The notes under the pieces are model-generated. The model did no database searches. It saw nothing but the letters and a program-made list of their open reading frames with translations, and was not told the origin of the DNA. DNA of 25,027 bases from a virus. This document shows positions 3,408 through 22,400 of this stretch, one piece after another. The DNA lies in IMG/VR virus record IMGVR_UViG_3300018405_000479, positions 1 to 25,027 of that record, one strand, 5' to 3'. The translations under genes and the position numbers were made by a program. The number at the start of each line of letters is the position of its first letter. Within the stretch, counting starts at the first letter, position 1.

Positions 3408-3419
3408 TTTTAAACCCTC

Positions 3420-3782
3420 CTACCACGTATCAATTTCAAATAAGATTTCGTCACCATCGTTAAGTTCATAACTTCCTGCTCCAACTTGCGCAGGTTCACC
3501 ATTTACAATAAACGACCAAAATTCTTTTTCGCTTTCATCTGCTTTTCGTCCATTTATTGACGTGATAAAACCATCTGTTTCTTCTAGTTCAAAGTTATTC
3601 TTCATTACATCCATAGCTGTTTGATCTTCTACAAATGCAACTTCAAGTTGCTCCTCTTGTACGCTTATGGTAACTACTTGATTTTCTACTGTCGCAGAAA
3701 TAGCTTTTTCTACTTCTGGCTCCTGTCCACATCCTGATAGTAATGATAATCCGATAATAATTGATAATAATAATTTTTTCAT
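3420..3782 (-). CDS. Phage-encoded lipoprotein with DUF4430-like domain
   Basis: 120 aa, ATG at 3782 with AGGAGG. MKKLLLSIIIGLSLLSGC is a lipoprotein signal: two lysines, a hydrophobic core and an LSGC lipobox, so Cys18 should be lipidated and the protein anchored outside the cell membrane. The rest (TAMDVMKNNFELEETDGFITSINGRK, WSFIVNGEPAQVGAGSYELNDGDEI) follows the pattern of DUF4430/transcobalamin-like C-terminal domains: D-V-L/M, a GFI-x-SI-x-G turn, W-x-x-x-VNG and a GD-E/x-I end. A surface lipoprotein inside a replication operon is out of place. Phage lipoproteins elsewhere block DNA entry by competing phages, so superinfection exclusion is one idea, without direct evidence here. Confidence 0.85.
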   Translation of the reverse strand: MKKLLLSIIIGLSLLSGCGQEPEVEKAISATVENQVVTISVQEEQLEVAFVEDQTAMDVMKNNFELEETDGFITSINGRKADESEKEFWSFIVNGEPAQVGAGSYELNDGDEILFEIDTW

Positions 3783-3792
3783 TGTTCTCCTC

Positions 3793-4296
3793 CTAATTGT
3801 ACTTATCTTTAATAACCATTTCAGTATCTTGCATGCGTTTAGTCAATACTTTTTTAGCTCCGCTGAATACATGTTCAGCCATTTCTAGTTTTGTTTTAAG
3901 TTTTTTATATGCACGTTGAAATGCTATTTCAATCATAGATTCATTTAACGTCAGATAAGATGCATTTGCTTCTTTATCTTTGATTGTACCTGATGATTCC
4001 ATATAGCGTTGATTATAAATGTCTAACTTAACTGCTTTAGCCATATCACTTTCAACACCTAACGTTTCAATACCATTGCTTGCATAGTACATAAAAACAG
4101 GAATGCGCATTACAAGATGTTCAATCTCACTATCGTCCAAAGTTGTTTTATCATCTAAAAGAAGTTTTATTTTTTCTACTTCTTCATCTAGCTCTTTATT
4201 ATACTTTTGAACGATTGAGTCTACTACTCTTTCAAGTACTTGACTATTTTCCTCGACTGTATGCTTGATTGATCTTACTTTGGATTCTTCTATCAA
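3793..4296 (-). CDS. Helical protein, possible UvsY-like recombination mediator
   Basis: 167 aa from a TTG at 4296 that sits 8 nt after AGAAGG. A GTG at 4305 is in frame but lies in that binding site. The sequence is mostly helical: an N-terminal coiled coil (VEENSQVLERVVDSIVQKYN), a middle with GVESDMAKAVKLDIYNQRYM, and a basic C-terminal helix pair (RAYKKLKTKLEMAEHVFSGAKKVL). T4 UvsY has a similar size class and an all-helical, basic layout, and this gene lies in the recA operon beside a resolvase-like gene. I see no specific motif, so the mediator role is a guess from context. It could equally be an unrelated structural or accessory protein. Confidence 0.65.
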   Translation of the reverse strand: MIEESKVRSIKHTVEENSQVLERVVDSIVQKYNKELDEEVEKIKLLLDDKTTLDDSEIEHLVMRIPVFMYYASNGIETLGVESDMAKAVKLDIYNQRYMESSGTIKDKEANASYLTLNESMIEIAFQRAYKKLKTKLEMAEHVFSGAKKVLTKRMQDTEMVIKDKYN

Positions 4297-4297
4297 C

Positions 4298-4648
4298 TCA
4301 ATCACCTTCTAAGTCTTTTATTACTTGCTTTAGATTTTCAACCTCTTTTTCTTTTTCTAAAAGATACTTAAACTTTTCAAACTTCATGCAAACAACCCAC
4401 GGCATATGGTCACCTCTAAACGCTACAATATCAGGCTTTTCACGTTCGTCTAATATCCAACTGTATAACGTCTTCTCAAGTTGTTTTCTGCGCTTGACCT
4501 CCGCTTTCCATCCATTAGGTAATATAACATCATTTGAGAACTCAGCACCTTCCACAGCTCCGGAAAGTGGTACTCGTTTACCATTAACAAGTTTAGCAAA
4601 CTCTCGCTCGCCTCGATTACCTTTTTGTTTAGACATACGTCCGCCCAT
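4298..4648 (-). CDS. Small PD-(D/E)XK nuclease, resolvase-like
   Basis: 116 aa, ATG at 4648 directly after the thyX TAA. AGGGGA about 8 nt upstream supports this start over the ATG at 4636. The sequence KQKGNRGEREFAKLVNGKRVPLSGAVEG ... NDVILPNGWKAEVKRRKQLEKTLYSW follows the Hjc/RecB-like order: G-x-x-x-E-R-E-x-A helix, SGA, (N)D-V, and E-V-K. E15 or so, D41 or so and the EVK pair would be the metal site. The C-terminus becomes a charged helix (KYLLEKEKEVENLKQVIKD). Likely a Holliday-junction resolvase or branch nuclease working with RecA. It is distinct from the nuclease at 533-871. Confidence 0.72.
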   Translation of the reverse strand: MGGRMSKQKGNRGEREFAKLVNGKRVPLSGAVEGAEFSNDVILPNGWKAEVKRRKQLEKTLYSWILDEREKPDIVAFRGDHMPWVVCMKFEKFKYLLEKEKEVENLKQVIKDLEGD

Positions 4649-5377
4649 TTAAAGTTTCCCCTGTTCTTTATAAACCTTAACCACGTTAGGAAACTGATCT
4701 TCTACCAATGCTAACACTTCTTTTGCATACGCCTGAATCTCGTATTGGGCATCTTCTTTGATACGTTGTGCAACGAAGTGAAGAACTGACTGAAGCGAAG
4801 CGGTCCAATACCATCTTACATACATACCATAGGCTGGTAAAAACAAACGAGCTTGCTCCGGCGCTATTCCAATACCTAATGCACGTTCATAGATAGCTTC
4901 TGCGTGCTGAATAAACTTTTCAAGTTCTGCAGTATATGCAAGTCCTAACTCTTCAGGAGTAAAGTTCTCTCCGCTTCCTTGTTTTGAGTTTGCAGGCTTT
5001 TTACGCCACTCGTTAGGTTGAGGAATGTAAAAAGTAGGTTCTTCTGTAATGTACCGACGGCTTGATTCATTCCATGCAGTCATTGTATCTCCAATACCTT
5101 CTTGATGTGAACTGCCTACAATATATTTCCACCACTGCCTCGCGACCATAAGTGGAGCGTAAACTTCAAATTGAATCATTGCGTGACGGAAAGGACTTGT
5201 ATGATTATCTCTAACTAAAAATTTAATCAGTCCGATATCTTTTTCGTCTAACTTATCTTTTTTCTTATTATATGATACACGAGCTGAATTAACTGGAGTT
5301 AAATCTGTACCTAACGTATCGTGTAAAATAACATAACCTTTATCTAATACGTCTTTTCGTTTGTTTACTTCTGTCAT
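4649..5377 (-). CDS. thyX: Flavin-dependent thymidylate synthase
   Basis: 242 aa, with a TAATG overlap with the exonuclease before it. It makes dTMP from dUMP using methylene-tetrahydrofolate, FAD and NADPH. The family core is clear: NHTSPFRHAMIQFEVYAPLMVARQWWKY, then WNESSRRY, PAYGMYVRWYWTASLQSVLHF and a long C-terminal helix. The signature RHRx7S is altered. After ARQWW, where RHR is expected, the sequence reads KYIVGSSHQEG with a short insert before WNESSRRY. Related phage and bacterial ThyX proteins show similar variants, so activity is still likely. It pairs with Dut, and FolE upstream in the window may compete for GTP. Confidence 0.92.
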   Translation of the reverse strand: MTEVNKRKDVLDKGYVILHDTLGTDLTPVNSARVSYNKKKDKLDEKDIGLIKFLVRDNHTSPFRHAMIQFEVYAPLMVARQWWKYIVGSSHQEGIGDTMTAWNESSRRYITEEPTFYIPQPNEWRKKPANSKQGSGENFTPEELGLAYTAELEKFIQHAEAIYERALGIGIAPEQARLFLPAYGMYVRWYWTASLQSVLHFVAQRIKEDAQYEIQAYAKEVLALVEDQFPNVVKVYKEQGKL

Positions 5378-5994
5378 TATTCAAAATCCTTTCCCATTAA
5401 AATGTTATAGCAGAATGTTACAAGCTCTACCTGGTAATGTGCGTCATCTAAAGCGTCATGTTTTATAAATCCTACTTCATATTTCAACTCTAAATGTTTA
5501 TCTAATTTACCACGTAATTCCTTCTCTTTAATTCCTAACTTATGCATTGCTAGTTCTAAAATGGTTCGTACATCTCTATCGTTTCTATAGAAAATAGGAT
5601 ACACTTGATCATGTTTTTCAAATTGAGTTTTTAGTTTAGCATTATCAAATAAGATTCCATTTCCCCATAAGAAAATATCTTTATAGAATGGATCATCTTC
5701 AGATTGTGATAAACCATTAATCCAGCAGCTGAAATCTTCTAATGCTGATTCTAAAGGAACTTGACCATTTAGAATTAAGTCAGTAAATAACTCCTTGTCT
5801 GTTCCTAACCACCATTTGATTGTAGAACCATCAGCGTTTAATTCAGTTTTTGCAATATCTACATACGCTTCAAACGTATCAATGATTTCACCGTTATTAA
5901 TATCAAATGCAAGTGCTGCAATTTGAATAATTGTGGCATCATCACCTAATCCTAATGTTTCTAAATCTACCATAATGTCTAATCTTTTTTCCAT
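5377..5994 (-). CDS. DEDDh 3'-5' exonuclease (RNase T/DexA-like)
   Basis: 205 aa, ATG at 5994 with GGAGGAG. The catalytic residues of the DEDD superfamily can be read in order: MVDLETLG (Asp9, Glu11), LWGNGILFDNAKL (Asp), and HDALDDAHYQ (His then Asp), which makes it the DEDDh type. The region IIQIAALAFD and the KWWLGTD segment resemble the T4 DexA and phage RNase T-like group. It may trim single-stranded DNA ends during recombination or degrade RNA or host DNA. Sequence alone does not separate these. It overlaps thyX by the last base of its stop. Confidence 0.85.
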   Translation of the reverse strand: MEKRLDIMVDLETLGLGDDATIIQIAALAFDINNGEIIDTFEAYVDIAKTELNADGSTIKWWLGTDKELFTDLILNGQVPLESALEDFSCWINGLSQSEDDPFYKDIFLWGNGILFDNAKLKTQFEKHDQVYPIFYRNDRDVRTILELAMHKLGIKEKELRGKLDKHLELKYEVGFIKHDALDDAHYQVELVTFCYNILMGKDFE

Positions 5995-6006
5995 CTGTTC
6001 TCCTCC

Positions 6007-6201
6007 TTAGTATGTTTCCCTTTTTGGTCCTCCGTTAACTTCAATTACAATACGATACGTATTATTTTTCTCGTGTTTTTCAAAACCTTCATCGTCTAAA
6101 ATAACGTCATAGCCGTATTGCACATCTGCTGAAATTAAATCATCTTCTTTCATGTTGTCTATTAACGCATGTAAATGTTTTTTTATACTCAAGTTATCCA
6201 T
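6007..6201 (-). CDS. Unknown 64-aa protein
   Basis: The ATG at 6201 (MDNLSIKKHLHALIDNMKED) has GAGGTG 6 nt upstream. A longer frame back to a TTG at 6243 would overlap the Cas4-like gene and lacks a binding site. The protein has a short N-terminal helix, then strands (ADVQYGYDVILDDEG, TYRIVIEVNGG). No family recognised. It lies between the Cas4-like nuclease and the exonuclease in one operon. Confidence 0.65.
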   Translation of the reverse strand: MDNLSIKKHLHALIDNMKEDDLISADVQYGYDVILDDEGFEKHEKNNTYRIVIEVNGGPKRETY

Positions 6202-6211
6202 CCTTTTCACC

Positions 6212-7024
6212 TCAGATACTTTCAGTAGGTCCTGTCGCAGCACATATTTTCTTATACTTACAATACTTACATTCAGATTTGCTTGTTGTCATAGGAGGAA
6301 CCTTATCGAGAGCTATATAAGTATTACATGTTTCTATAACATTGAATACTCTTTCAAACTTTTCTAACTCAGTTACTTCTACATGAAATGCTTTCCTGTT
6401 ACAGAAATCTCTGTTTTCGTAAAGGAATATTACATCATCAATTCCTAAGCATGCGGCATATGCACTTGCTTGAAACATGTGCTTATTGACAGGCTCTGTT
6501 CTTCCCTGAAACTTAAAAGAAGCTTCTGTCTTTATTTCTAATACGTAAAATTTACCTGTCTTTTTATGTCGTATAATACCATCACATAAAAATGATAACT
6601 CTAATATTTCATTGTAAAGCTTTACTTCGTTTCCTTGTCGTTTTACAACTTTAGTCCCAGGTTGCGGCCAATCTCTTAAATAATCTTCAGCGTCTATCCA
6701 TTCAAAATCTTTATCGTAACCTTTCATCTTCATAACAGCGTCCTGTATGCGCTCATGTCTGTCTGTACCACTTTCCATTATACCAATACCGCTTGAATCC
6801 TCCGGGTCTATACTTGGAGGATCCATTTCAGCACCTGTTTTAATATAATACATGTTACGCATGCAACCACCCATGCTACTTGGTTTGTAAGATTGAGAAG
6901 GCGTTCTTCCATTATCAATCTGATTTTTGACTACTGTTTCATTTAACTGATATAGGAAATCCTGCTCAACTGTTTTTTCTTTATTTGCTTCACTTATGAA
7001 TTTAGCAAGATTCTTTAAGCCCAT
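6212..7024 (-). CDS. Cas4/AddB-like iron-sulfur PD-(D/E)XK exonuclease
   Basis: 270 aa, ATG at 7024 after AGAGGAA. Catalytic pattern: His90 (GTDRHERIQ), Asp148 (FLCDGIIRH), and Glu163 with Lys165 (VLEIKTEASFKFQ), followed by a conserved Q in the HMFQASAYA helix, the RecB-family QxxxY-type motif. Cys54 together with Cys252, Cys255 and Cys261 gives the one-plus-three cysteine layout that holds a 4Fe-4S cluster in Cas4, AddB and Dna2. No CRISPR genes are nearby, so this is the stand-alone phage version, likely a single-strand exonuclease that makes tails for RecA. It sits beside the clamp gene. Confidence 0.88.
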   Translation of the reverse strand: MGLKNLAKFISEANKEKTVEQDFLYQLNETVVKNQIDNGRTPSQSYKPSSMGGCMRNMYYIKTGAEMDPPSIDPEDSSGIGIMESGTDRHERIQDAVMKMKGYDKDFEWIDAEDYLRDWPQPGTKVVKRQGNEVKLYNEILELSFLCDGIIRHKKTGKFYVLEIKTEASFKFQGRTEPVNKHMFQASAYAACLGIDDVIFLYENRDFCNRKAFHVEVTELEKFERVFNVIETCNTYIALDKVPPMTTSKSECKYCKYKKICAATGPTESI

Positions 7025-7026
7025 TT

Positions 7027-8097
7027 TTATTCCTCTTCCGTATCTTCGTCATCCATAATGCTCAATACAAGGTTTAAATTCTCAGCAGTTAGTTTAATAG
7101 GAATACCTTCGCCATAATGAACAGTCACATCTTCTTCACTGATTGCTCCTAATAACTCTTTTAAGAATACCAAGTTGACCGTAACTGTTACACCACTGTT
7201 TGATTCAGATGCTAATTTAGGTTCAATAGTTTCAAGTGAGTTTTCATTACTATCTGTAATTTCTACTGAATCTTTATTAAACGTCATTTTAATGCTGTGA
7301 TTATCAAACTCATCTACAAAGATAGATAATCGGTCTAATACACTTAGTAATTCAGCTTTAGATAGAACGCAACTTGCAGGATGTTCTAAGTCTAAAATGC
7401 TTGTAACATCAGGATATTCTTCTTTACCGTCTAACTCAGGTCCGAAGATAGTGATTGCATCTGTTTTAAATAATAAATTATCTTCATCTTTTTGTACTGT
7501 AAACTCTTCACTATCAATTACTGCTAATAAATCAGCCAATGATTGAGGAATTAACAAGTCTTCGTTTCCAATCTTAACATCATTAATGCACATCTTTAAT
7601 CCATCAGTCGTAATAGATTTAGAAGATAAGTTATAACCTGTTAAACATGGTACCAACATTTCTTTTGCGATAGCTGAATAGTTTGTACGTAAAACGTTTT
7701 TAAGGTCTGATGTTTTAACTGTATAAGATTTACTATCTTCATCAAACTCATAAATAGGGAACGAATGGTCAGCTAAGATATTAATTTTGTAATTACCATT
7801 ACCTTTAACTTCAAACGCTTTGTCTGTTGCTTTAAATGACATTTCAGGTTTAGTTGTTTTTGATACAAGGCGGATTAAGTCAATTGCTTTCACAATAACA
7901 TCTCCGTCTTCTCCTTCGATATCACTTACTGAATAAGTCATAAAATTATTCAAGTCTGTTGATGTTAATTTTAATGTTCCATCTTCTAGTTCTAAGTGTA
8001 GGTATTCAGTAATAGGTACAATGTTAGAACCACCTACTCCTTTTTGAACTTTTGATAAAATAGCATTTAATTTTGCTGTTCCAATCTTAAATTTCAT
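7027..8097 (-). CDS. dnaN: DNA sliding clamp (DnaN/beta-clamp-like)
   Basis: 356 aa, ATG at 8097 after AGGAGGAGA. Length and layout fit the bacterial beta clamp: three similar beta-rich domains, starting MKFKIGTAKLNAILSKVQKGVGG, then ITEYLHLELEDGTLKLTSTDL, a middle domain after SYTVKTSDLKNVLRTN, and a third domain ending IPIKLTAENLNLVLSIMDD, close to the PI-x-x-(T/S) strand that ends DnaN. The acidic tail (DDEDTEEE) is unusual. It presumably tethers the phage polymerase encoded at 12669-15218. It lies 11 nt after dpdA, so clamp and DNA modification are expressed together. Confidence 0.87.
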   Translation of the reverse strand: MKFKIGTAKLNAILSKVQKGVGGSNIVPITEYLHLELEDGTLKLTSTDLNNFMTYSVSDIEGEDGDVIVKAIDLIRLVSKTTKPEMSFKATDKAFEVKGNGNYKINILADHSFPIYEFDEDSKSYTVKTSDLKNVLRTNYSAIAKEMLVPCLTGYNLSSKSITTDGLKMCINDVKIGNEDLLIPQSLADLLAVIDSEEFTVQKDEDNLLFKTDAITIFGPELDGKEEYPDVTSILDLEHPASCVLSKAELLSVLDRLSIFVDEFDNHSIKMTFNKDSVEITDSNENSLETIEPKLASESNSGVTVTVNLVFLKELLGAISEEDVTVHYGEGIPIKLTAENLNLVLSIMDDEDTEEE

Positions 8098-9084: not shown

Positions 9085-9585
9085 TTATCGATTATCTACC
9101 TTTTCAGGATATAAATCGTGGTTGATTAATCGTTGCGTTGCCATTTGTTCATATTTAGTTCCTGGCTTACCATAATTTGCGTAAGGGTCAATTGAAATTC
9201 CACCACGTGGTGTAAACTTACCCCATACCTCAATATAACGAGGATTCATTAATTTAATTAAGTCTTTCATAATAATGTTTACACAATCTTCATGGAAATC
9301 TCCGTGGTTACGGAAACTAAATAAATAAAGCTTTAACGATTTACTCTCAACCATTTTCTCTCCTGGAATATAGCTGATGTAAATGGTAGCAAAATCTGGT
9401 TGCCCTGTCTGCGGACATAAACTTGTGAACTCAGGTACGTTAAACTTAACAAAATAGTCGTTACCTGGATGTTTATTATCAAATGTTTCTAATACATCAG
9501 GATCGTATTCATAATTATATTTAGTATTTTGATTACCTAAAAGTGATACAGTGTCAAACTCTTTCTCGTTTCTTGTTGTACTCAT
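9085..9585 (-). CDS. queF: preQ0 reductase QueF
   Basis: 166 aa, ATG at 9585 after AGGAGG. It reduces the nitrile of 7-cyano-7-deazaguanine (preQ0) to preQ1 with two NADPH. The match to the short, single-domain B. subtilis enzyme is very close along its whole length. Cys57 ([13 protein letters not shown]) is the nucleophile, Asp64 the acid, and ESKSLKLY (80-87) the NADPH motif that defines reductases and is absent from QueF-like amidinotransferases. [10 protein letters not shown] holds the substrate-binding His and Glu. It is the last gene of the que operon, ending at the B terminator. Its presence predicts preQ1 rather than preQ0 as the base delivered to DpdA. Confidence 0.96.
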
Positions 9586-9609
9586 GTTAATGTTCCTCCT
9601 AATTGTTTT

Positions 9610-10233
9610 TTATTTAATTAAGCTAAAGAATTCAGCTCGTGCATCATGTTCTGTTTTAAATACTCCTCTTAACGATGATGTCGTTGTAGATGCGCCTGTC
9701 TTACCTACACCTCGTGAGCACATGCACATATGCTTAGCTTCAATAACTACGGCTACTCCAATAGGGTCTAATGTTTCTTGAATAGCTTCTGCTATTTGAG
9801 TTGTTAAACGTTCTTGAACTTGAAATCTCTTTGCGTACCCGTCTACCACCCTAGCAATTTTTGAAAGGCCTGTGATATGATTTCTAGGAATATAGGCTAC
9901 ATGAGCTACTCCATAAAAAGGTGCTAAATGATGTTCGCACATAGAAAAGAATTCAATATCTTTAACCATTACCATTTCATCGTGATCAACGTCAAATGTT
10001 TTTTCAAGATGTTTTTTAGGATCTTCTCTGTACCCTTCAGTGTACTCTAAAAATGCTTTAACTACTCGAAAAGGAGTTTCTTCTAAACCATCTCGACCAG
10101 GATCATCTCCACATAATTGCAACATACTTTGAATGCCTTCAAGGGAGTCGTTAAGAAGTTCTTTTTCATCCATTACATCTTCTTTATATAACTTTAATTT
10201 TTCAATCTGCTTTTTAGTTAATTTTTCAATCAA
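9610..10233 (-). CDS. folE: GTP cyclohydrolase I
   Basis: 207 aa from a TTG at 10233, 7 nt after GAGAGGGG at the end of queE. An ATG at 10173 lacks a binding site. It converts GTP to dihydroneopterin triphosphate, the first step toward both folate and queuosine. [14 protein letters not shown] gives Cys99 and His102, and [12 protein letters not shown] gives Cys170, the usual zinc ligands. [15 protein letters not shown] and [17 protein letters not shown] are also family hallmarks. The N-terminal 25 residues are a charged helix. Position between queE and queF shows its job is supplying 7-deazaguanine synthesis. Confidence 0.95.
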
Positions 10234-10235
10234 TG

Positions 10236-10961
10236 TTATACCCCTCTCCGGTTCGCATATACAAGTGTATGAAGTTGTGGAAATGGTCTTGCATTATTCA
10301 TCTCAGGATCTTCTAATACCTTATCCCATAACCAATCCAGTTTTTGAAGTAATCTACCTGAAATATCTCCCTGTTCTTGTGCATCATTATTACCTACTGA
10401 TACATAAAAGATATTAGGTTTATAACGTTCGTTAATTATCTTTGCGTACTCAAAGTCAGCGTCATCAAATACTACTACCTTTAGAGTATAATTGACTTCA
10501 TTTACGTCTAGCTTAGCAATAATGTCATCAAGTTTATTAAAATCTGTCTTCATCATTGAGCTTGGAGGTTTTGGTGATATCGTTAAGTCGTCAATGTCGT
10601 AAAACCACTCTTTGAAGAATGATCCTTGAGTTTCTAATCCAATTTCAATTCCATCATTTTTCAATAAGTTAATTAAATCATCCATCGGTTGTCCTATAAG
10701 CGCAGGATTTCCTCCGCTTATAGTAACATGGTCAAAATTATCTTTTCCAATTTCTTTTAACTCATTGTAAACTTGCTCACCTGTTTTCATTTCTGCTTTT
10801 TCTTCACCATTCCATGTAAATGCGCTATCACACCATGCACATGAATAATCGCAACCGCCTGTTCTTACGAACATAGTTTTACGACCAATAACCATCCCTT
10901 CACCTTGGATTGTAGGTCCGAAAATCTCCATGATAGGCATACGTTTTTTCTTCTGCGTCAT
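10236..10961 (-). CDS. queE: 7-carboxy-7-deazaguanine synthase QueE
   Basis: 241 aa, ATG at 10961 sharing one base with the queD stop (TAATG). A radical SAM enzyme that rearranges carboxy-tetrahydropterin to 7-carboxy-7-deazaguanine. [20 protein letters not shown] is the family N-terminus, and [10 protein letters not shown] (Cys37, Cys41, Cys44) binds the 4Fe-4S cluster. TISGGNPAL is the SAM-contacting GGE-like motif, and ISPKPPSS also matches. Length and sequence are close to B. subtilis QueE, including the NRRGV end. Confidence 0.95.
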
Positions 10962-11332
10962 TATTCAACACCTCGATAACGTGCCCATGTTTTTGGTGTT
11001 TCACTTACTCTAACTTCAACAACTTGCTCAAGCCCGTTTGATTTACACCACTCGTATAAATGACGTGATAAATTCTCAGCTGTTGTGTAGAAGTCGAATA
11101 ATTCATTTAAGTGACGGTGGTCAAGTTCACTACCAATGTAATTTTTCAATGGTTTTAATTCACCGTAATCTCTTACAAAACCATCTTCATTTAGTTCATT
11201 TGAACCTAATACTGCTACTACAATATAGTTATGACCGTGTAATCTTGCACATTGGTGATCTAAAGGTAAATGTTCTAGCTGATGTGATGCGCTAAAATGA
11301 AACTCTTTTGAGATCTCGTATTTATAACTCAC
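10961..11332 (-). CDS. queD: 6-carboxytetrahydropterin synthase QueD
   Basis: 123 aa from a GTG at 11332, 7 nt after AAAGGAGGAG and overlapping the transporter stop (GTGA). It turns dihydroneopterin triphosphate into 6-carboxy-tetrahydropterin. The zinc histidines are His17 (FHFSASHQL), His32 and His34 (RLHGHNY), and Cys28 in QCARLHGHN is the catalytic cysteine. ELDHRHLNE and VRVSETPKTWARY complete the active site. Size is normal for the family. Confidence 0.95.
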   Translation of the reverse strand: MSYKYEISKEFHFSASHQLEHLPLDHQCARLHGHNYIVVAVLGSNELNEDGFVRDYGELKPLKNYIGSELDHRHLNELFDFYTTAENLSRHLYEWCKSNGLEQVVEVRVSETPKTWARYRGVE

Positions 11333-11943
11333 AGTGCCTCTCCTCCTTTAGATCGTGCTAATTTTACAAGTAAATAAGTTATTGGTGTATCTGCTACTGC
11401 TACGATAAATTTAAAGATATATTGAACTACAATCATTGAAATTAAAACGCTTGTAGGTACTGTTCCGATAAACGCAATTATAATGAAAATGCCGGTATCG
11501 ACGAGTTGACTGACGATTGTCGACGTATTATTTCTTAACCATAACTTTTTAGTTCCATGCTTTTTCTTAAGGTAATGAAAGATTCCGACATCTAAAAACT
11601 GGCTAGATACATACGCTGTTAAACTTGCAATCGTGATTCTAAATCCTCCTGCTAAAATTGTTTGGTACTCTGCCTGAAGTCCAAAATGTTCGGCTGGTGG
11701 TAAATAAATTGAAATTAAAATAAAAATTGATGCAATGATTTGAGCAAGTAAACCTGCTTTCACAGTTCTCATTGCCATTTTCTTTCCGTAAACTTCTCCG
11801 ATTACATCTGTTAATAAATAAGTCACTACATAAACAATTGCCGCAGCAGGTAAAACGAATCCACCGACTTCAAATAGTTTAACTGAAATGATATTACTTA
11901 GTATTAACAGTCCTACAAATAGGCTTGACAAGTAAATATACAT
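11329..11943 (-). CDS. yhhQ: Queuosine-precursor transporter (YhhQ/QPTR family)
   Basis: 204 aa, ATG at 11943 after AGAGGAGAA. Five or six hydrophobic spans are visible, starting MYIYLSSLFVGLLILSNIIS. The family pattern YLLTDVIGEVYGKK follows, then a middle span, FLDVGIFHYLKKKHG, and RNNTSTIVSQLVDTGIFIIIAF. Members import preQ0 or preQ1. Here it sits inside a complete de novo pathway between queC and queD, so the phage can probably both make and scavenge the base. GTGA overlap with queD shows tight coupling. Confidence 0.9.
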   Translation of the reverse strand: MYIYLSSLFVGLLILSNIISVKLFEVGGFVLPAAAIVYVVTYLLTDVIGEVYGKKMAMRTVKAGLLAQIIASIFILISIYLPPAEHFGLQAEYQTILAGGFRITIASLTAYVSSQFLDVGIFHYLKKKHGTKKLWLRNNTSTIVSQLVDTGIFIIIAFIGTVPTSVLISMIVVQYIFKFIVAVADTPITYLLVKLARSKGGEAL

Positions 11944-11947
11944 TTAT

Positions 11948-12595
11948 TTATTCTCCTCTTCTTTGTTCGTATTTTTCTAATCCGTTCTGTCTTAACTTAC
12001 ATGATGGACACTCTCCGCATCCTTTTCCGATAATTCCATTGTAACAGGTTAAGGTATTATCTCTTACGTATTCAAATACACCTAATTGATCCGCTAACTC
12101 CCATGTCTGCTCTTTATCGATGTGCATCAAAGGCGTATGAATAGTTAAAGATGTTTCCATCGCTAGATTCAACGTCATTTGCATTGATTTAATAAAATCT
12201 TCTCTGCAATCAGGATATCCACTGAAATCCGTTTGGCTTACCCCCGTAACCAATTCAGTAAATCCTTTCTGTTGTGCAATGATACCTGCTAATGATAAGA
12301 ATAATAAGTTTCTACCTGGTACAAATGTATTAGGCAACTCACCATCTTCTTGTTCAATGTCGATTTCGCGTGTTAGAGATGTTTTTGTAAGCTGGTTTAA
12401 TAGCTCAACATCTAATACTCTATGAGTCAATTTTAGATCTTCAGCTATACGTTCAGCAACTAAAATCTCTTGCGAATGTCTTTGACCGTAGTTAAATGTT
12501 ACTAACTCGACTTCATCAAACTTTTTAAGTGCCCAAAATAAACAGGTTGTACTTTCTTGACCTCCACTAAAAACCACAATAGCTTTTTTCTTCAT
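11948..12595 (-). CDS. queC: 7-cyano-7-deazaguanine synthase QueC
   Basis: 215 aa, ATG at 12595 after AGAGGAGGTG. It uses ATP and ammonia to convert carboxy-deazaguanine to preQ0. The PP-loop is [12 protein letters not shown] at 9-20, and four cysteines (184, 193, 196, 199) in [16 protein letters not shown] bind zinc. [11 protein letters not shown] and [15 protein letters not shown] are strongly conserved. The PP-loop Asp of SGGxDS is Glu14 here, an uncommon change. It is the first gene of the operon, driven by element C. The leader is only about 28 nt, so the preQ1 riboswitch that controls the Bacillus que operon has no room here. Confidence 0.95.
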
Positions 12596-13550: not shown

Positions 13551-13790
13551 CTTTACCGTTATAGGCTCGTTACGCCTCCAATCTTTCGACTGGTGTCGGA
13601 CTATATCTTATTTTGGTTTTTTAACCAAAATCCTCCTGTTTCGACTTCACTTGAAGCCTACTCTACTCCCTTATCTACGGTTTCGATAGTCTCTGCACGT
13701 TCCCTTTTAAGGGCTTCGCTCATGATTGCCATATCTTTTCAGACTTAGGTTTCCATGAATTAAAGAGGTTTTAATTCAGCCATGATATTA
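13551..13790 (-). ncRNA. Group I self-splicing intron in the polymerase gene
   Basis: 240 nt. The 5' exon ends TTCAGT, and the intron contains GCTGAA at positions 11-16. This gives a 6-bp P1 helix with the required U-G wobble at the splice site. The intron ends in G (GGTAAAG), as group I introns do. Core elements are clear on the minus strand: GCAATCATGAGCGAAGCCC (P/Q region), GTGCAGAGACTA (R) and AAGATATAGTCC (S), with GACTA pairing to TAGTC as P7. A GATTTTGGTT/AACCAAAAT hairpin before S suggests the IA subclass with extra P7 helices. It splits codons S and Q of motif A, exactly in frame. There is no homing endonuclease inside. Confidence 0.93.
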
Positions 13791-15218
13791 ACTGAAATCT
13801 CCTCCGATTAAATAATAGCCATCTGTAGGAATAAACATTTTTCTTATTTCTTTATTCTTAGATGGTATGTTTTGTAAGTTTGGATCCTTACTACTGAATC
13901 GGCCTGTTACTGCTCCATATTGATTAAATGAACCATGCAATTTACCTGTACGTTCATTTACAACTCTAGGAAGTTTTTCAACATACGTACTAAGTAATTT
14001 TTTAAGTCCTCTACATTCTAATACACTATCGACTAATTGACCATGCTCAGGGTGTAATTCTTTTATTTTTTCTAAAATACCTGCTCCAGTTCCTCGAGGA
14101 GATTTTCTATCAACAGATTTTATTTTCAATACATTGTATAACAATGTTTGCATTTGTTTAGCTGAATTGTAATTAACTCCGCCCATAATTGTATTTTTAG
14201 CTGTCTGATCTAGTTTTGAAGTATCTAAATTTCTAACAACTTGTTGAAGATTTTCATTGGCCTCTTCAAGTTTTGCAGTGTACTCTTTATACAATTTATC
14301 TGATACTTCTTTATCAATTCCAACTCCTCTATCTTCCATGCTTGCGATAACTCGTATAAGCGGAAGTTCTACATTCACAAAAAATGTTCCTGCTTCTTTC
14401 AGACCTTTTTCTTCACATGACTCTCGTTTAGGGTCTAAGAACTGTTGCTGGAATTTAGTTAATTGAGTTGTCATTAAACCATCTTTAGCTGCATATAGGT
14501 AAGCAATCTCTATTGGAATATAATTAAAAGGAACATCTGAGAATAGTTCACTAAACTTATCCGCTTCCTTTGTTGAATCTGTATTTATATATTTATTCCA
14601 AAGATACTTTAAACCGTGGTTTTCGTTTTCATTTAAGTAATGCCCACCTAACATTGTATCCCATCCTACATGTAAGTAATCAGGTAAGTCTAGCCAACGA
14701 TTAGTGGTACGTATGTCAAAATCAGCGTTGTGGAAGTACCAGTCAATATCTAGAATAGGTTTAAGGTATTCAGTCATTGTTTCATAACTAAGTTGGTCTG
14801 GTAAAACATTTCCATCTAAATCTGTATGCTTATGTGGTATATAGCAAGATTTTTTTCCATCTGTATGCAGTACGGTTCCAACTAAGTAATCATCACCTAA
14901 TATATTTAAACCTGTAGATTCTACATCTAAACTTGCATATCCGTTTTCTTTTATTTTATCAATGTATTCTGAAAGCTCTTCTTCTGTTCTTATACATAGA
15001 TAAAGATCTTCTTGTCCTTCAAAACTCTCTTTAGCTAACGCAACTATACTTGCTATTTTTTCTTTTAGTTTACTTTTTGAATCTTTGCCCGATGTTTTTC
15101 TTACTGTTTTTGTTTTCTTAGCTTTAGGACTATTTGCCTTTTTTGCTATTTTCTTGTTCAACTCTTTTGATTGCTTATCAAGTTGAGGAAGATTTCCAAA
15201 TAAAGATTTTTGCGCCAA
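13791..15218 (-). CDS. polA: DNA polymerase family A, exon 1 (exonuclease and start of polymerase)
   Basis: 476 residues from a TTG at 15218, 6 nt after AAGGAGGAG. The frame runs back to 15263 but the binding site would then be inside the gene. After a lysine-rich linker (about 15-55) comes a DEDDy 3'-5' exonuclease: SLDVESTG (Asp98, Glu100), YFHNADFDIR (about Asp168), and YAAKDGLMT (Tyr242, Asp246). No 5'-3' exonuclease domain is present. The thumb and palm follow, with AVTGRFSSKDPNLQNIPSK, and the exon ends at GGDFS, the first half of motif A. The next codon is an in-frame TAA inside the intron, so unspliced RNA gives an inactive fragment. Confidence 0.93.
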
Positions 15219-16857: not shown

Positions 16858-17853
16858 TTAAATTAAATTATATTTAATAGAATCTAATTGAGTTTCACTC
16901 ATCATATTAACATCTTTAACACCTTGAGGAAATGATAGCCTATATATGATTTTATTTGAGCCTAATTGTTTCTTTAGTTTCTCAGTTCCTAACTCACCAG
17001 CGTTGTCATTATCTAAAGCACTTATAAACTTTCTTATAGGTAGTTTTAAAAGAAGCTTTGCTTGAGTCTCTGTTATCCTCGCTCCCATTAAAGCTACTGC
17101 TGGAATTCTTTTTGTCCATAACGTTAATGCGTCGATAGGACTTTCAGTTATATATAACTCTTTAATCCATGAAAGGTTTTTATACACTTGGTAAAGTCCG
17201 TAAACATGGTTACCTTTATTTCCGCCCTCATCATTTAAAAACTTTTTACCTTCAACGGATCGTCTTTGAATAAGTGCTAAATGGCCTTTTTCATCAAATA
17301 CTGGAAACGTTATTGAATGCGTATCCTTGTCGTAGCCAACATCGAAATATTCAATAACCTTATCAGTTAGTTTTCTTCTGTACATATAAGGATGCGTATA
17401 TCTAAAGTCATCTAAATTAACAAGAGGGCTTTCATCAAACTCAATATCGTCTTCTTCTAATTCTCTAGCCATATTTAGTTCAATAGGCTTGCGCTCTTCT
17501 ACTGCTAAGTTTACAAATTTTTGCGTTATCCATTTAAACCCTTGAATACCACCATCGTTATAACCTAAAGCATTTGATATAAACGTTGGTAAGTCTGCAG
17601 TGTAGCCACACGTAAAACAGTTGCATGTCCCTTCGCGTATGGTTCTTCCGGGTAAATCTACCTGAACAGTAGAAACACCAAGAGACGGGTGTCTCTCTTG
17701 CCCGTCCGCATGGTTTATACATGTTACCATAACATTGTTATGAGTCGGCTTTATATCTTTAAGCAACTCAATATCATTAAGCTGTAATTCTCTTTTTAAT
17801 TCACGAATAATATCTTCAACGGTTGCTAATACAGGAACGCCATTTACTTCCAC
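16858..17853 (-). CDS. dnaG: DnaG-like primase
   Basis: 331 aa from a GTG at 17853 that overlaps the helicase stop (TAGTG). AAGGAG lies 13 nt upstream, rather far, so translation may be coupled. It makes RNA primers at the fork. A zinc-ribbon-like part near the N-terminus uses Cys45, His48 and Cys77/79/82 (TCINHADG, GTCNCFTCGY). The TOPRIM domain shows LYITESPIDALTLW (Glu237), then ISALDNDNAG (Asp281, Asp283). It is shorter than bacterial DnaG and lacks a clear C-terminal helicase-binding domain. It sits directly after the helicase gene. Confidence 0.9.
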   Translation of the reverse strand: MEVNGVPVLATVEDIIRELKRELQLNDIELLKDIKPTHNNVMVTCINHADGQERHPSLGVSTVQVDLPGRTIREGTCNCFTCGYTADLPTFISNALGYNDGGIQGFKWITQKFVNLAVEERKPIELNMARELEEDDIEFDESPLVNLDDFRYTHPYMYRRKLTDKVIEYFDVGYDKDTHSITFPVFDEKGHLALIQRRSVEGKKFLNDEGGNKGNHVYGLYQVYKNLSWIKELYITESPIDALTLWTKRIPAVALMGARITETQAKLLLKLPIRKFISALDNDNAGELGTEKLKKQLGSNKIIYRLSFPQGVKDVNMMSETQLDSIKYNLI

Positions 17854-19172
17854 TAGAAAAGGTCAACTCCTTCTTGTTCAACAGGGTTGGATTCTTTTAT
17901 CTGACCTTTGTTATCTGTCTGAGCAGTAAGAAATGGCTTTACAATTCCTTTATCAAGATCCCATATCATCATTATCTCGCTGAATCTCTCTCCGTACCTG
18001 TTCTTTTTTAAACTGAATTTCATAGTAGGACCTATAGATTTTATTGTCAAAACTCTTGTAGCATTCTGTCCTATTCCATCACTTTCAGCTAAGTGTTCTA
18101 GCTCAGGTGCTTCTTCATTTGATTTATTGGCACTCTTTTTACTTGAATCACGATTTGCCTGCGCTGGTGTGAGAATTGGAATCTCGTACTTCTCTGAGGT
18201 TAAAAATAAATCCTCAGCTATATGCGTATATCTGATTCTCGTTTGTTCTCCACGCTCTGCTCTGTAATCATCCATAAGAGATAATTGATCAATACCTACA
18301 ATACCAGGATTATACTTTTCTATAAGCTGGTGAAGTTTTGGAATTGTTAATCTCTTTCCACCAATGTGCTTAGGAGTAATAACAACGAAAGGAACATCTG
18401 TACTAGATAAATTCTCGAGATAAGCGTAGTAATCATCTTTTGTTTTTGATTCCCCTAACTCATCAGAACCTTTCATCAGACCAGTTCCGCTAAATTTTCC
18501 ATGCAATGTATCAAATCTGAAACCTACGATTGTTTCTGACATCTCACCGCTGTAAAGCAAAACAGGAACTCCGGCCAGCCATGCAGATACTAAGAAAAAT
18601 AAAAGTACCCACGTTTTACCCTCGTTTGTTCGTCCTGCTATTACAATGAAATCTTCTTTTAACCATCCGTGAGTAATATCATCAAGTTCAGCAATTCCTG
18701 TCGTTATACCTAACAGGCCTTTTGATTCATTTCTAAAGTCGTACTCACTCTTTCTGTCTTGTCCGCCTTTTACAATGTCATATCCTTCTTTGTACTGACT
18801 TGCTAAACTCTTTATCTGTTCCACTTGAGCCATTAAAAACTCAACTGCTTCTTCTGAGTTATCAGTCACTTTATCTGCTAACGTATGAACAAACGGCACA
18901 AGGTGTTTATACATGTATTGTTCTTGAAGTGTTTCCACCAAGTACTTATCACTTTCAGAAACTTCAAAAAAGTCATGCTCCTTAAATCTAGATTCACTCA
19001 AAAAAGTTTCTTTGTCAGGAACATTACCATGCTCTGTATAGTGATCTAATATATAGTCAATCTCATCTCTGTAAGTTAAGAAGTAATCACTATCTATGTT
19101 ATTTTGGTTTAAAACAGATAACGATCTGGTAAGAAGTATCTTGTTTATAGTTTGAAGTTCGGCCATGCTCAT
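17853..19172 (-). CDS. dnaB: DnaB-like replicative helicase
   Basis: 439 aa, ATG at 19172 overlapping the loader stop (ATGA), with GGAGG 11 nt away. RecA-fold ATPase: Walker A GRTNEGKT (180-187), GEMSETIVGFRFD (H1a-like), Walker B IVGIDQLSLMDD, and PAQANRDS before an E-rich loop, as in DnaB family motif H3. The N-terminal 140 residues are helical, as in the DnaB collar. It ends in EEGVDLF-like acidic residues that may bind partners. It acts with the loader encoded just upstream and the primase just downstream. Confidence 0.92.
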   Translation of the reverse strand: MSMAELQTINKILLTRSLSVLNQNNIDSDYFLTYRDEIDYILDHYTEHGNVPDKETFLSESRFKEHDFFEVSESDKYLVETLQEQYMYKHLVPFVHTLADKVTDNSEEAVEFLMAQVEQIKSLASQYKEGYDIVKGGQDRKSEYDFRNESKGLLGITTGIAELDDITHGWLKEDFIVIAGRTNEGKTWVLLFFLVSAWLAGVPVLLYSGEMSETIVGFRFDTLHGKFSGTGLMKGSDELGESKTKDDYYAYLENLSSTDVPFVVITPKHIGGKRLTIPKLHQLIEKYNPGIVGIDQLSLMDDYRAERGEQTRIRYTHIAEDLFLTSEKYEIPILTPAQANRDSSKKSANKSNEEAPELEHLAESDGIGQNATRVLTIKSIGPTMKFSLKKNRYGERFSEIMMIWDLDKGIVKPFLTAQTDNKGQIKESNPVEQEGVDLF

Positions 19173-19855
19173 AAGCTATCAATCCTCCGATCAACGTCAC
19201 TTTGAAACTCAACAAGTTTTGATGAACCTATTATTCTGCTTACAATAGTCTCACCTAAATAATCTTGCTTCCTCATAGTTTCAAGTGGTATGTTAGAAGT
19301 AAAAATCTGTGATAGCATATTACTCTCTCTATGGTTTATAAACGTGTAAAGAGTCTCACGTACAAAATTAGATGGACTCTCTGTTCCAATATCATCCCAT
19401 ATTACAAGGTCTGCAGTTTTAATGTTCTGTAACATCTCTGCAAACTCGTCATTAGGATTATCAAACGAGTTCTTAAGCTGTCTAAAGAACTCAGGTACGT
19501 TCACAAATAACCCTCTGCATGTTAAGTTATTACCTAACGCAACTTTTCTAAAGTACTCATTCATAATCTTACACGCCCATGATGTTTTACCTGTACCCCT
19601 TTTTTCACTTAGTAAAAATAATCCATCACCTTTCTCTACATGATCTTGAACACTGTTTTGCCAATCACGTAAATAAAGAAAAGCATCTCTATCAGCCTCT
19701 TCAGGTACCAGCGGATTTTCATACTGATACCTTTTTGGCATGCTACTTAAATTATATATATTTTGCATTTGGATATAACCTATACAATGCTCATGGCAAT
19801 TAGTGCGCTGTTCATTGAATAGTTTACAATACGATTCTGCCTGACATCTTTGCAT
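19169..19855 (-). CDS. DnaC/DnaI-like AAA+ helicase loader
   Basis: 228 aa, ATG at 19855 after AGAGGTG. Walker A EKRGTGKTS (84-92), Walker B ADLVIWDDIGTE, a sensor-like IFTSNIPLE, and a C-terminal arginine (RIIGSSKLVEF) are typical of DnaC/DnaI loaders. Four cysteines at 4, 10, 20 and 24 (RCQAESYCKLF, NCHEHC) suggest a small zinc-binding N-terminus, as in DnaI. It should load the phage helicase at the origin. Element E lies 18 nt upstream of the start, so the loader, helicase and primase form one transcription unit. Confidence 0.9.
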   Translation of the reverse strand: MQRCQAESYCKLFNEQRTNCHEHCIGYIQMQNIYNLSSMPKRYQYENPLVPEEADRDAFLYLRDWQNSVQDHVEKGDGLFLLSEKRGTGKTSWACKIMNEYFRKVALGNNLTCRGLFVNVPEFFRQLKNSFDNPNDEFAEMLQNIKTADLVIWDDIGTESPSNFVRETLYTFINHRESNMLSQIFTSNIPLETMRKQDYLGETIVSRIIGSSKLVEFQSDVDRRIDSL

Positions 19856-19873
19856 TTAATTCACCTCTACAAA

Positions 19874-19903
19874 ACATATAACAAAAAGAGTTGAATTTTT
19901 AAG
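19874..19903 (-). promoter_or_regulatory. Phage promoter-like element E
   Basis: Minus-strand CTTAAAAAT-N13-TTATATGT with TG before the second block. It has no hairpin. It lies just after the initiator stop and ends 18 nt before the loader ATG. Confidence 0.65.
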
Positions 19904-19909
19904 CATAAA

Positions 19910-20848
19910 TTAAAATACTTCTCTTTCTGCATAATCTTTTTGAGATGTATCTACTGTGAAGTCATTCACTTTAAACTCTCGTTCTACAGGCTGAATAGTA
20001 TTCTGTGATGTTTCTACAAGTTGTTTAATAAGGCGATTATTCTTCTGTACCATGTTAAACGTTAGCTTAGGATATTGAGTAGCACTTGGACTATCTTTGT
20101 AATTTTCTAGCATTAAGTCAATATAAGCACAAACTTTATCTAAAGGTAATTCAAATCGTTTAATTAAATCTTCTCGGATAATGCTAACAGATGAATATCT
20201 ATCAAACGTTAAAGGTTCACCTAAAATAGTCTCATGCTGTTTCATGAAGTAGTAGGTATAATCTCTAAACGTAACATCTGACCAAGGTATAGATTTAGCT
20301 TTAGCATTTTTAATTTTTTCTAAAGCAATTTCTTTGTGAGAAGATTTCTTAGTTTTTTGTTTCTTGCCTGAGCTTTGCTCTTTATTCAATTTATTGAATA
20401 AAGTGTTTTTATTAGTATTGTTATTATTAGTATTATTAGGGTCCGTCTGACAAACCTGGTGTGGTCCGTCTGGCGTACCTGGTACTTGTTTTTTAACAGT
20501 TTGTTTCTTCAGTGAATCCACTGTCAGATCATGTTGCTTAGCCAATTCCGTCTTGACTTTTTCACTTACATCCATTAACTTATAGGTGTTAAGAGTTTTC
20601 ACTCCTTTTTGTTTTTTGTTTACGGTGATGTATCCTAGCTTTTCAAGATGTTTAATCGCCTTTATGACGGAAGATCTTCCGGCACCTGTTAGTTCACAGA
20701 TAAGCGATTGGCTAGGATAACATTCACCGGTTTTATTATCTGCATACATAGATAAAACCATATAGACAGCTTTGTCATATACATTTAAACGCTTGTCTTT
20801 TATAACTTCATTTTTAATAGTGGTAAAGTTCCCCTCGAGCTTTGTCAT
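19910..20848 (-). CDS. Winged-helix replication initiator (DnaD/O-like)
   Basis: 312 aa, ATG at 20848 after AAAGGAGG. The N-terminus starts MTKLEGNFTTIKNEVIKDKR, followed by a winged helix with CYPSQSLICELTGAGRSSVIKAIKHLEKLGYI, as in phage initiator HTH domains. A linker rich in N, T, K and P (about 120-175) separates it from a C-terminal helical domain that may contact the loader. The linker's DNA holds two tandem iterons, an AT-rich run and an inverted repeat (20380-20485), so the gene probably contains the origin it binds, as lambda O does. It lies immediately upstream of the loader and helicase. Confidence 0.8.
   Translation of the reverse strand: MTKLEGNFTTIKNEVIKDKRLNVYDKAVYMVLSMYADNKTGECYPSQSLICELTGAGRSSVIKAIKHLEKLGYITVNKKQKGVKTLNTYKLMDVSEKVKTELAKQHDLTVDSLKKQTVKKQVPGTPDGPHQVCQTDPNNTNNNNTNKNTLFNKLNKEQSSGKKQKTKKSSHKEIALEKIKNAKAKSIPWSDVTFRDYTYYFMKQHETILGEPLTFDRYSSVSIIREDLIKRFELPLDKVCAYIDLMLENYKDSPSATQYPKLTFNMVQKNNRLIKQLVETSQNTIQPVEREFKVNDFTVDTSQKDYAEREVF
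20380..20485. other. Candidate replication origin inside the initiator gene
   Basis: Three neighbouring parts. Two tandem 23-bp repeats at 20440-20462 and 20463-20485 start GGTCCGTCTG and share ACCTGGT, with 18 of 23 identical. They are G/C-rich in an A/T-rich gene. Next to them is a 36-nt A/T run (20404-20439) with ATTATTAG-type repeats, a likely unwinding tract. Then comes an inverted repeat with perfect 11-bp arms CTTTATTCAAT/ATTGAATAAAG and a 2-nt centre (20380-20403). The encoded protein segment is a low-complexity linker, so the DNA rather than the protein may be under selection. Confidence 0.5.
20440..20485. repeat. Two tandem 23-bp direct repeats (iteron-like)
   Basis: Copies at 20440-20462 and 20463-20485 differ at five positions, two of them at the end. 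Because 23 is not a multiple of three, the repeats are read in two frames (QVPGTPDGP and HQVCQTDP). Repeats kept in DNA but not in protein point to a DNA-level role. Confidence 0.75.
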
Positions 20849-20863
20849 TTTTTTTGTCCTCCT

Positions 20864-21118
20864 TTAATATACTTCGTAGATGCTTAGTACGTTACTGATT
20901 GAACGATATACTTGATCTACCGGTACGTTTAACTTAATTGAAATCTCCTCAGCATACTTGTACGCATCTTCTAAATCAATTTTATCATCATCTAAAATCA
21001 AATTAACTGCAATATCTAGCAGTGTAGATTTAGGGCTATCTAGCACCTTACGATCTGCAAAGATGATTGGACGCTTTCCTTCTCTTTCAACTGTAAACCC
21101 TTCATTTTCCCATGACAT
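20864..21118 (-). CDS. Unknown 84-aa acidic protein
   Basis: The ATG at 21118 (MSWENEGFTVEREGKRPIIF) lies 8 nt after GGAGG. The frame extends to 21133 but passes through that site. A short beta part is followed by helices (TLLDIAVNLILDDDKIDLEDAYKYAEE, VPVDQVYRSISNVLSIYEVY). It lies just before the initiator and after a terminator. No family recognised. A small partner of the initiator is possible but unproven. Confidence 0.7.
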   Translation of the reverse strand: MSWENEGFTVEREGKRPIIFADRKVLDSPKSTLLDIAVNLILDDDKIDLEDAYKYAEEISIKLNVPVDQVYRSISNVLSIYEVY

Positions 21119-21148
21119 TTTACATTCCTCCAATATAAATTTTTAATT

Positions 21149-21181
21149 AAAAACAAGGCGGATTTTAACCACCTTGTTTTT
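21149..21181 (-). terminator. Intrinsic terminator after 21196-21384
   Basis: Minus-strand AAAACAAGGTGG pairs with CCGCCTTGTTTT (one G-T) around a 7-nt A/T loop, followed by TAATTAAAAATTT. It lies 15 nt past the stop of the 62-aa gene. The stem is strong. Confidence 0.82.
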
Positions 21182-21195
21182 ATTATAGTACTTTA

Positions 21196-21384
21196 TTAAT
21201 CATTATTCAATTCCATAATCTGTTTTTCTACTTCGTGAATGACTGTATTCCAGGCTTTTTCTCGACCTTTCTGAATGTCATCTCCTTCGGTAAACTCTAC
21301 TTCAATACCTGAGTTAAACTTGTACCACGTACCTCGAATCTCTGCACTTGTTCCAAAACTCGCTGAAAATTTAGTTACTCGCAT
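21196..21384 (-). CDS. Unknown 62-aa protein
   Basis: ATG at 21384 after GTGAGGT, directly following the stop of the gene before it. MRVTKFSASFGTSAEIRGTWYKFNSGIEVEF looks like a curved beta-sheet, followed by a helix (GREKAWNTVIHEVEKQIMELN). Small proteins of this shape occur in replication clusters of several Firmicute phages with no known role. No motif allows a functional call. It ends the operon at the terminator at 21149-21181. Confidence 0.7.
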   Translation of the reverse strand: MRVTKFSASFGTSAEIRGTWYKFNSGIEVEFTEGDDIQKGREKAWNTVIHEVEKQIMELNND

Positions 21385-22017
21385 TTACTCAACCTCACTT
21401 TCAAATTGCTTATAGGCTTTGGCTTCAGGATGAGCATCAAATAAAAATCGCAAGGCCGTCTCACGGTCGTTTCCAGCTAATTCTAAATAACGATTAAATT
21501 GATGTTCTAAGGATAGTCGTTTAGACTCTTTTTTTCTTACTGCATATACGACCTCTAAAATTGAATCAGCGACTTCATTTCTACGCTCTTGATTCGCTTC
21601 AAAATCCTCCATTAACATTTCATACTGTTTAACAGCGTCTTCATGTTTTTTAACATCGTCTGCAATCTGGTTGTAGAATTCTTCAGTGTAGTATTTATCC
21701 GTCGATACTTCAGGTTTATTATATGATTTAAGTTCCGTTACAAACTTATAACCAAAATCACGACCGTATTCAACATCAACTAATTCCATGTTAGATACTA
21801 AGTCAAATAGAGCAAGTGCCTTGTTGTAATCTAATGTTTTAAAACCTCCGATAGAATAAACATTTACATCAGGTGCCGGAATATCCTTTTTAGGTTTCTC
21901 CGGTTCAGGCGTAAGTTTAATTCCATTCATTGCACATTCTAGATCAATATAATTTTGAATTTCGTCCTCCGTTAAGTTTAGAATCTCTTCGTCTGTTAAG
22001 TCAAAAAAGTTTTTCAT
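21385..22017 (-). CDS. Unknown 210-aa acidic protein
   Basis: An ATG at 22017 shares a base with the stop before it (TAATG), with GGGGAG 9 nt upstream. Acidic N-terminus (FFDLTDEEILNLTEDEIQNYIDLE), a proline/lysine linker (TPEPEKPKKDIPAPD), then a largely helical C-terminal part with coiled-coil character (KKHEDAVKQYEMLMEDFEANQERRNEV). No recognisable catalytic motif. It belongs to the operon starting at element F. Confidence 0.72.
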   Translation of the reverse strand: MKNFFDLTDEEILNLTEDEIQNYIDLECAMNGIKLTPEPEKPKKDIPAPDVNVYSIGGFKTLDYNKALALFDLVSNMELVDVEYGRDFGYKFVTELKSYNKPEVSTDKYYTEEFYNQIADDVKKHEDAVKQYEMLMEDFEANQERRNEVADSILEVVYAVRKKESKRLSLEHQFNRYLELAGNDRETALRFLFDAHPEAKAYKQFESEVE

Positions 22018-22400
22018 TAATCTTCACTCCCCTTTTTAATTTTTAATACAGGTACAACTTTTCGTTCAATACATGAATCCAAATCTTGCGGGTAAATCTC
22101 ACCAGTGTAAATAAGTTTTTCAATCACTTCTTCATCAGGAATCTCTTTCACTTTAATTGCTTGATGAAGACCTAAATCTTTAAGCTTTTGAACCATCTCA
22201 TCTTCTTTAATTTTAGTACGTACTTGCTCATTATAAGATAGTACATAACCACGGCCTTCGAGTGAGTTAATTTCCTCACTCTGCATATAGGCCTTTAGCT
22301 TTTTGTTCAAAGCTTTTTTCTCTTTGTCTAGCAACTTGTACTCTGCATCAATCTTTCCATAATTCTCAATCACCTGTAAAATCTTTAATTCTTCTGACAT
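22017..22400 (-). CDS. Unknown 127-aa coiled-coil protein
   Basis: ATG at 22400 after AAGGAGGAG. A charged coiled coil (KIDAEYKLLDKEKKALNKKLKAYM) leads into a short beta/helix part with EGRGYVLSYNEQVRTKIKEDE and a C-terminus rich in V, I and K. The first half recalls phage proteins of the gp157/Gam-like helical sort, but the match is too general to name. It is the first gene after element F. Confidence 0.72.
   Translation of the reverse strand: MSEELKILQVIENYGKIDAEYKLLDKEKKALNKKLKAYMQSEEINSLEGRGYVLSYNEQVRTKIKEDEMVQKLKDLGLHQAIKVKEIPDEEVIEKLIYTGEIYPQDLDSCIERKVVPVLKIKKGSED

Follow-up and report, generated by a model that had tools for sequence, protein, structure and literature searches.

In lambdoid phages the replication origin lies within the initiator gene, and in phage lambda itself two iterons and an A/T-rich tract suffice for unwinding (PMC7466680). 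The gp38 protein of phage SPP1 binds direct repeats of oriL in gene 38, beside an A/T-rich unwinding element (PMC6316719), and the Rep protein of plasmid pSK41 binds four boxes located in rep, with the origin-coded linker domain being dispensable in the protein (PMC5703833). Here we analyse a whole viral contig of 25,027 bp (hereafter, the window), in which the segment at 20380-20485 is very probably a phage replication origin placed inside the gene of its own initiator, judging from its sequence and that of its relatives. The core of this locus is a further member of the known kind represented by lambda O, SPP1 gene 38 and pSK41 rep: tandem iterons lie between the DNA-binding and C-terminal domains, and an A/T-rich tract directly adjoins them. 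To our knowledge, the new feature is a TAAA-loop hairpin, together with its link to the helicase loader and helicase of the phage.

The initiator gene (19910..20848, minus strand) encodes 312 amino acids that comprise an N-terminal winged helix, a disordered linker and a C-terminal domain, as delineated by Pfam, PHROG and an AlphaFold2 model. The protein matches HTH_36 in Pfam (2e-16) and the replication initiation protein family phrog_270 in PHROG (2e-22); its PHROG match to the 'replication initiation O-like' family phrog_678 (3.5e-14) is exceeded by those to other initiator families. The winged-helix domain (residues 13-91; 20576..20812, minus strand) was placed by model secondary structure (block pLDDT 72-92) and includes the recognition helix (residues 58-71; 20636..20677, minus strand). 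Structure comparison relates the winged helix to the RepA-type plasmid initiators 4pql, 4pt7 and 5kbj (VIA Z 9.0-9.4 over 105-109 residues). Because other winged helices score alike against it and no RepA_N profile matched the initiator in the Pfam scan, the resemblance to RepA is one of fold only. The region coding for the linker (residues 106-168; 20345..20533, minus strand) carries the origin elements, in agreement with the initial annotation, which had assigned them to the linker of this winged-helix protein. The linker has a pLDDT below 50, mostly about 30, and the C-terminal domain is modelled as helical with low confidence.

The initiator gene sits just upstream of genes for a DnaC/DnaI-like helicase loader (19169..19855; phrog_50, 4e-52) and a DnaB-like replicative helicase (17853..19172; Pfam DnaB_C, 3e-20; phrog_19, 3e-57), followed by a DnaG-like primase of the Toprim type (16858..17853; phrog_47, 8e-49), all on the minus strand. 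This minus-strand replication operon also includes a sigma factor and polymerase I, the latter being our reading of the open reading frames. The polymerase I gene contains a group I intron (13577-13800, minus strand; Rfam RF00028, 85 bits) after a ...GGDFS motif, with the exon resuming beyond it. Further along, RecA, dUTPase, ThyX and a sliding-clamp-like protein (DNA_pol3_beta) are encoded at 1509-8097 (minus strand), a rather complete replication set, and 9085-12595 (minus strand) holds a Pfam match to QueF beside open reading frames resembling QueC, QueD, QueE and FolE, which together read like a 7-deazaguanine pathway.

Within the linker-coding region lie two script-checked tandem 23-bp iterons on the minus strand, iteron 1 (GTACCAGGTACGCCAGACGGACC; 20463..20485) and iteron 2 (ACACCAGGTTTGTCAGACGGACC; 20440..20462), which encode linker residues 122-137. 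As first described, they are identical at 18 of 23 positions (18 of 21 over the core) and are G/C-rich in an A/T-rich gene (61% versus 33% G+C). Their start-to-start spacing is 23, so that the two copies fall in different frames, as had also been claimed. When scored with composition weighting, the pair ranks first among repeats at lags of 15-60 in the whole window (28.9 bits), a score reached by none of 150 dinucleotide shuffles of the window and by none of the shuffles of the initiator gene (0 of 500 dinucleotide, 0 of 500 synonymous-codon); given the different frames and the synonymous-codon result, the earlier view that protein repetition does not explain the iterons holds. Under unweighted scoring the pair is not exceptional window-wide, with about 10% of shuffles reaching it, and the comparative evidence below matters more than the shuffle p-value. 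The adjoining tract (CTAATAATACTAATAATAACAATACTAATAAAAACA; 20404..20439, minus strand), a candidate DNA unwinding element, had been called a 36-nt A/T run; it is indeed A/T-rich (86% A+T) but not unbroken, and 20377-20438 stands at the 99.5th percentile of A+T within the window.

Simple scoring revealed no convincing dyad in the window's iterons, with GGTnnGTCnGACnnACC in iteron 2 as a weak one only. No GC-skew switch was found at the candidate origin, in a 25-kb fragment whose genes all run one way. A scan of viral contigs with the window's own iteron sequence matched solely two kinds of unrelated gene, one of them for a recurrent TPGQPDGP-containing protein; this indicates that the iteron sequence is not conserved. 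A DNA search of phage records with the window gave no match, the initiator protein had a single weak, partial match among those records, and the genome collection contained no relatives of the initiator.

Two comparisons were made with metagenomic relatives. The first covered 35 loci with a homologous helicase, among which 17 initiators beside the loader were tested. A tandem repeat with a z of 4.7-14.7 was present in 12 of the 17, located at 32-42% of the gene, each time with an A/T-rich tract directly after it, whereas none of 34 control segments from loader and helicase genes exceeded z 2.5. The repeats of these relatives all differ in sequence and are often dyads (for example, GTACCGAAACGGTAC, AGTGTCAGATCTGACACT and GTAAAGAAACTTTAC). 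The other five (L013, L026, L028, L039 and L049) showed no clear repeat. In L013, the initiator (1131-2317) is split, immediately ahead of the linker, into two overlapping reading frames, the first for the winged helix and the second for the linker and C-terminal domain, and only loose GGAAATTCC-like elements are found. Streptococcus phage Dp-1 has replication genes related to the window's; neither Dp-1 nor MS1, whose helicases are 40% identical, has a comparable repeat-bearing initiator next to the loader.

The second comparison used two profile scans, which yielded 89 distinct initiators in total after removal of near-duplicates; the contigs are unevenly sampled, and the association tests below count related phages as independent. 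Repeats with z >4 occur at a like position in 84 of the 89 genes, the arrays starting at nucleotides 258-339 (5-95% range), and the 45 nt after them average 82% A+T, compared with 68% across the genes. Every frame is represented among the spacings (50, 28 and 6 of 84, hence out of frame in 34), which argues for repetition of DNA rather than of protein. In a second clade (L019, L022, L036 and L056-L078), the iterons are mostly 15-bp dyads, such as GTAAAGAAACTTTAC and CGGAAAAAATTTCCG, with six-base arms and a three-base, mostly A-rich centre, a layout like that of the lambda iteron; no such dyad is seen in the iterons of the window. As positive controls, lambda O (with its iterons annotated) and the rep genes of TP901-1 and Tuc2009 were scanned by the same test, which recovered their origins at 38-43% of the gene. 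This match in relative position supports reading the segment as an origin. The likeness to lambda noted at the outset, with repeats, A/T-rich tract and palindrome following one another in the linker, is likewise real, and it recurs in most relatives with other repeats.

Beyond the tract lies an inverted repeat (CTTTATTCAATTTATTGAATAAAG; 20380..20403, minus strand) whose 11-bp arms, already reported, proved perfect by script. From its recurrence among relatives, it is a conserved TAAA-loop hairpin (CTTTATTCAA-TAAA-TTGAATAAAG) and the most unusual part of the locus, which the initial annotation had missed. The DNA fold of 20360-20445 has an energy of -7.9 kcal/mol (z -3.9), and 1 of 200 shuffles was as stable. 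We scanned up to 110 nt downstream of the 84 arrays for perfect arms of at least 7 bp around a 4-nt loop and obtained 38 perfect hairpins, against 2.0 expected. In 29 of the 38 the loop reads TAAA on the sense strand (expected 0.1; at most 2 in 200 shuffles), and none near these arrays has a TTTA loop; that is, the orientation is fixed. The TAAA loop is found in two codon frames, and six such hairpins located elsewhere in initiator genes include none with TAAA. The arms vary among phages and change together, with both-sided changes at four of eight pairs in a sequence-only alignment of nine; the covariation score was 0.38, whereas shuffles gave 0.15 and slid versions no more than 0.17.

The hairpin is also associated with the replication genes next to it. 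A loader of the window's type lies downstream in 27 of the 29 relatives with a TAAA hairpin, and the other two contigs end within 205 bp. None of the 37 arrays without a detected loader has the hairpin; it is absent as well from 18 arrays with a loader match, several of these matches being weak, and a perfect TAAA hairpin is missing from about 12 relatives whose loader match is strong. The association (Fisher p 5e-8, uncorrected for shared ancestry) may be inflated by common descent. Two relatives with the loader and no TAAA (L117 and L021) have hairpins at a like position with TAGC/TAAC or TACC loops. Given that the hairpin accompanies quite different initiators (those of the window, L022, L031 and L036), its presence seems to go with the replisome and not with the initiator. 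No origin hairpin with a TAAA loop was described in the literature searched, which was limited to open-access papers and is weak evidence of absence.

Such a hairpin might instead act in messenger RNA, in processing, stability or control of initiator translation. Its location in a transcribed gene and its fixed orientation would suit a function in RNA. Its stems, by contrast, are perfectly Watson-Crick, and the near-misses carry A-A and A-G mismatches with no G-U, an absence that favours a role at the DNA level; its position just past the unwinding tract and its company with the phage loader and helicase, not with a type of initiator, also speak against action in RNA, which we regard as rather unlikely. 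We tentatively propose, at somewhat less than even odds, that the hairpin is a sense-strand DNA element beyond the unwinding tract, read by the phage loader, helicase or primase as a signal for entry or first priming. The origin would then work as a two-key lock, with iterons for the initiator and an initiator-independent hairpin for the replisome.

Natural variation offers a view of how iterons and initiator change together. One contig (L012/L003) matches the window with 98% identity across 9-10 kb. In the stretch of about 3.1 kb from 19000 to 22140, the two differ at 33 sites, 23 of which fall inside 202 bp around the origin, a difference rate of 11% in that segment versus 0.3%. These differences are synonymous and non-synonymous alike, and their clustering suggests the exchange of a short cassette. 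The L012 iterons are alike at 19 of 21 sites and differ from the window's copies at 6 and 3 of 21; at positions 8-12 both L012 copies read TTACG, where the window has ACGCC and TTGTC. Outside the cassette, the L012/L003 initiator differs at two codons, one synonymous and the other S59N, a double change from TCT to AAT at codon 59 (20672-20674, minus strand), the second residue of the recognition helix. The pairing of S59N with changed iterons hints at co-adaptation, and, as a single phage pair, is suggestive only.

Across 21 relatives with clear 15-bp dyads, half-site similarity tracks the identity of the recognition helix (Mantel p 0.0008), and the correlation persists after the identity of the rest of the domain is removed (partial p 0.004); iteron similarity correlates with that remaining identity too. 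Three pairs (L036/L039, L022/L026 and L077/L048) have closely related C-terminal halves and unrelated N-terminal halves, a pattern that we read as domain swapping at the origin-bearing linker. The natural chimera L077 is 59% identical to L022 in its N-terminal half and has the same iteron (GTAAAGAAACTTTAC), whereas its C-terminal half is 73% identical to that of L048, whose iterons differ. That iterons travel with the N-terminal domain in chimeras is partly expected from linkage, because they adjoin that domain.

The repeats could also be sites at which the initiator regulates its own expression, as an intragenic operator or a transcription roadblock, with no origin involved. Winged-helix proteins commonly bind dyads in their own operon, and comparative repeat tests cannot tell regulatory binding apart from binding that starts replication. 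This explanation is nonetheless very unlikely, in view of the A/T-rich tract that constantly adjoins the repeats, a site inside the gene and not at its promoter, the neighbouring genes for loader and helicase, and the agreement with established origins of lambda, Tuc2009 and TP901-1. Least credible of all is that a poorly constrained, low-complexity linker acquired its repeats by slippage or protein-level duplication: the linker is disordered and spacings of 21, 24 or 45 nt, which keep the frame, are common among relatives, but the copies are out of frame in the window and in the 34 relatives noted above, synonymous shuffles never reach the score, synonymous sites diverge too in the segment that is hot between the window and L012/L003, nearly all initiators (84 of 89) carry repeats of different sequence at one place, and iterons correlate with the recognition helix.

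From the repeats, the tract, the hairpin, their conserved arrangement, the variability of the repeats and the link between hairpin and phage loader and helicase, all read from sequence, we infer binding, melting, loading and priming at the segment as follows. The winged-helix N-terminal domain would bind both iterons, and this binding would strain and then melt the adjoining A/T-rich tract. The C-terminal domain would recruit the phage DnaC-type loader, which would place the phage DnaB-type helicase and the primase. The linker that joins the two domains, being disordered, could accept any amino acids that the origin DNA dictates. Once the duplex opens, the TAAA-loop hairpin may fold on the sense strand, a step that we put forward with some reserve, and it might mark the site of phage replisome loading or of the first primer, which is a comparably tentative suggestion. 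Replicative helicases of this type have 5'-3' polarity, so the sense strand would be the loading strand for a helicase moving in the direction of the gene.

An origin in the initiator-gene linker across a large phage group is a rule recognisable in the sequence, so that origins and likely protein-DNA pairings can be listed for many uncultured phages. Natural variation supplies a table of recognition helices against half-sites, and the replisome-tied TAAA hairpin hints at how these phages position the first helicase or primer.

Each of the known systems shares part of this arrangement. The rep genes of Tuc2009 and TP901-1 resemble the window in having repeats inside the gene at 38-43% of its length, and the Tuc2009 record notes for rep 'contains origin of replication'; they differ in their repeat sequences and have neither a TAAA hairpin nor a loader/helicase operon of the window's type. 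pSK41 Rep, for which binding is known, shares the N-terminal winged helix, sites central in its own gene, an origin-coded linker and a separate C-terminal domain (PMC5703833), and the fold comparison with RepA-type initiators (Z 9.0-9.4) fits this likeness; it has four boxes where the window has two iterons, and, unlike RepA_N plasmid initiators, the window's protein has no RepA_N Pfam match and is accompanied by a phage helicase loading system. SPP1, likened here by description, has repeats and an A/T-rich element in the gene of gp38 at oriL, and a phage loader (gp39) with a DnaB-type helicase (gp40) (PMC6316719); unlike the window, it relies on host DnaG and carries oriR as a second origin. 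Lambda O arranges the three elements in the order seen in the window and likewise has them at 39% of the initiator gene; a helicase loader gene follows the initiator, and a palindrome scores beyond the tract. Lambda O has four 18-bp iterons rather than two of 23 bp, with different sequences, and lambda combines its P protein with host DnaB, whereas the window encodes a DnaC/DnaI-type loader with a phage helicase and primase, and has a TAAA-loop hairpin in contrast to the lambda palindrome.
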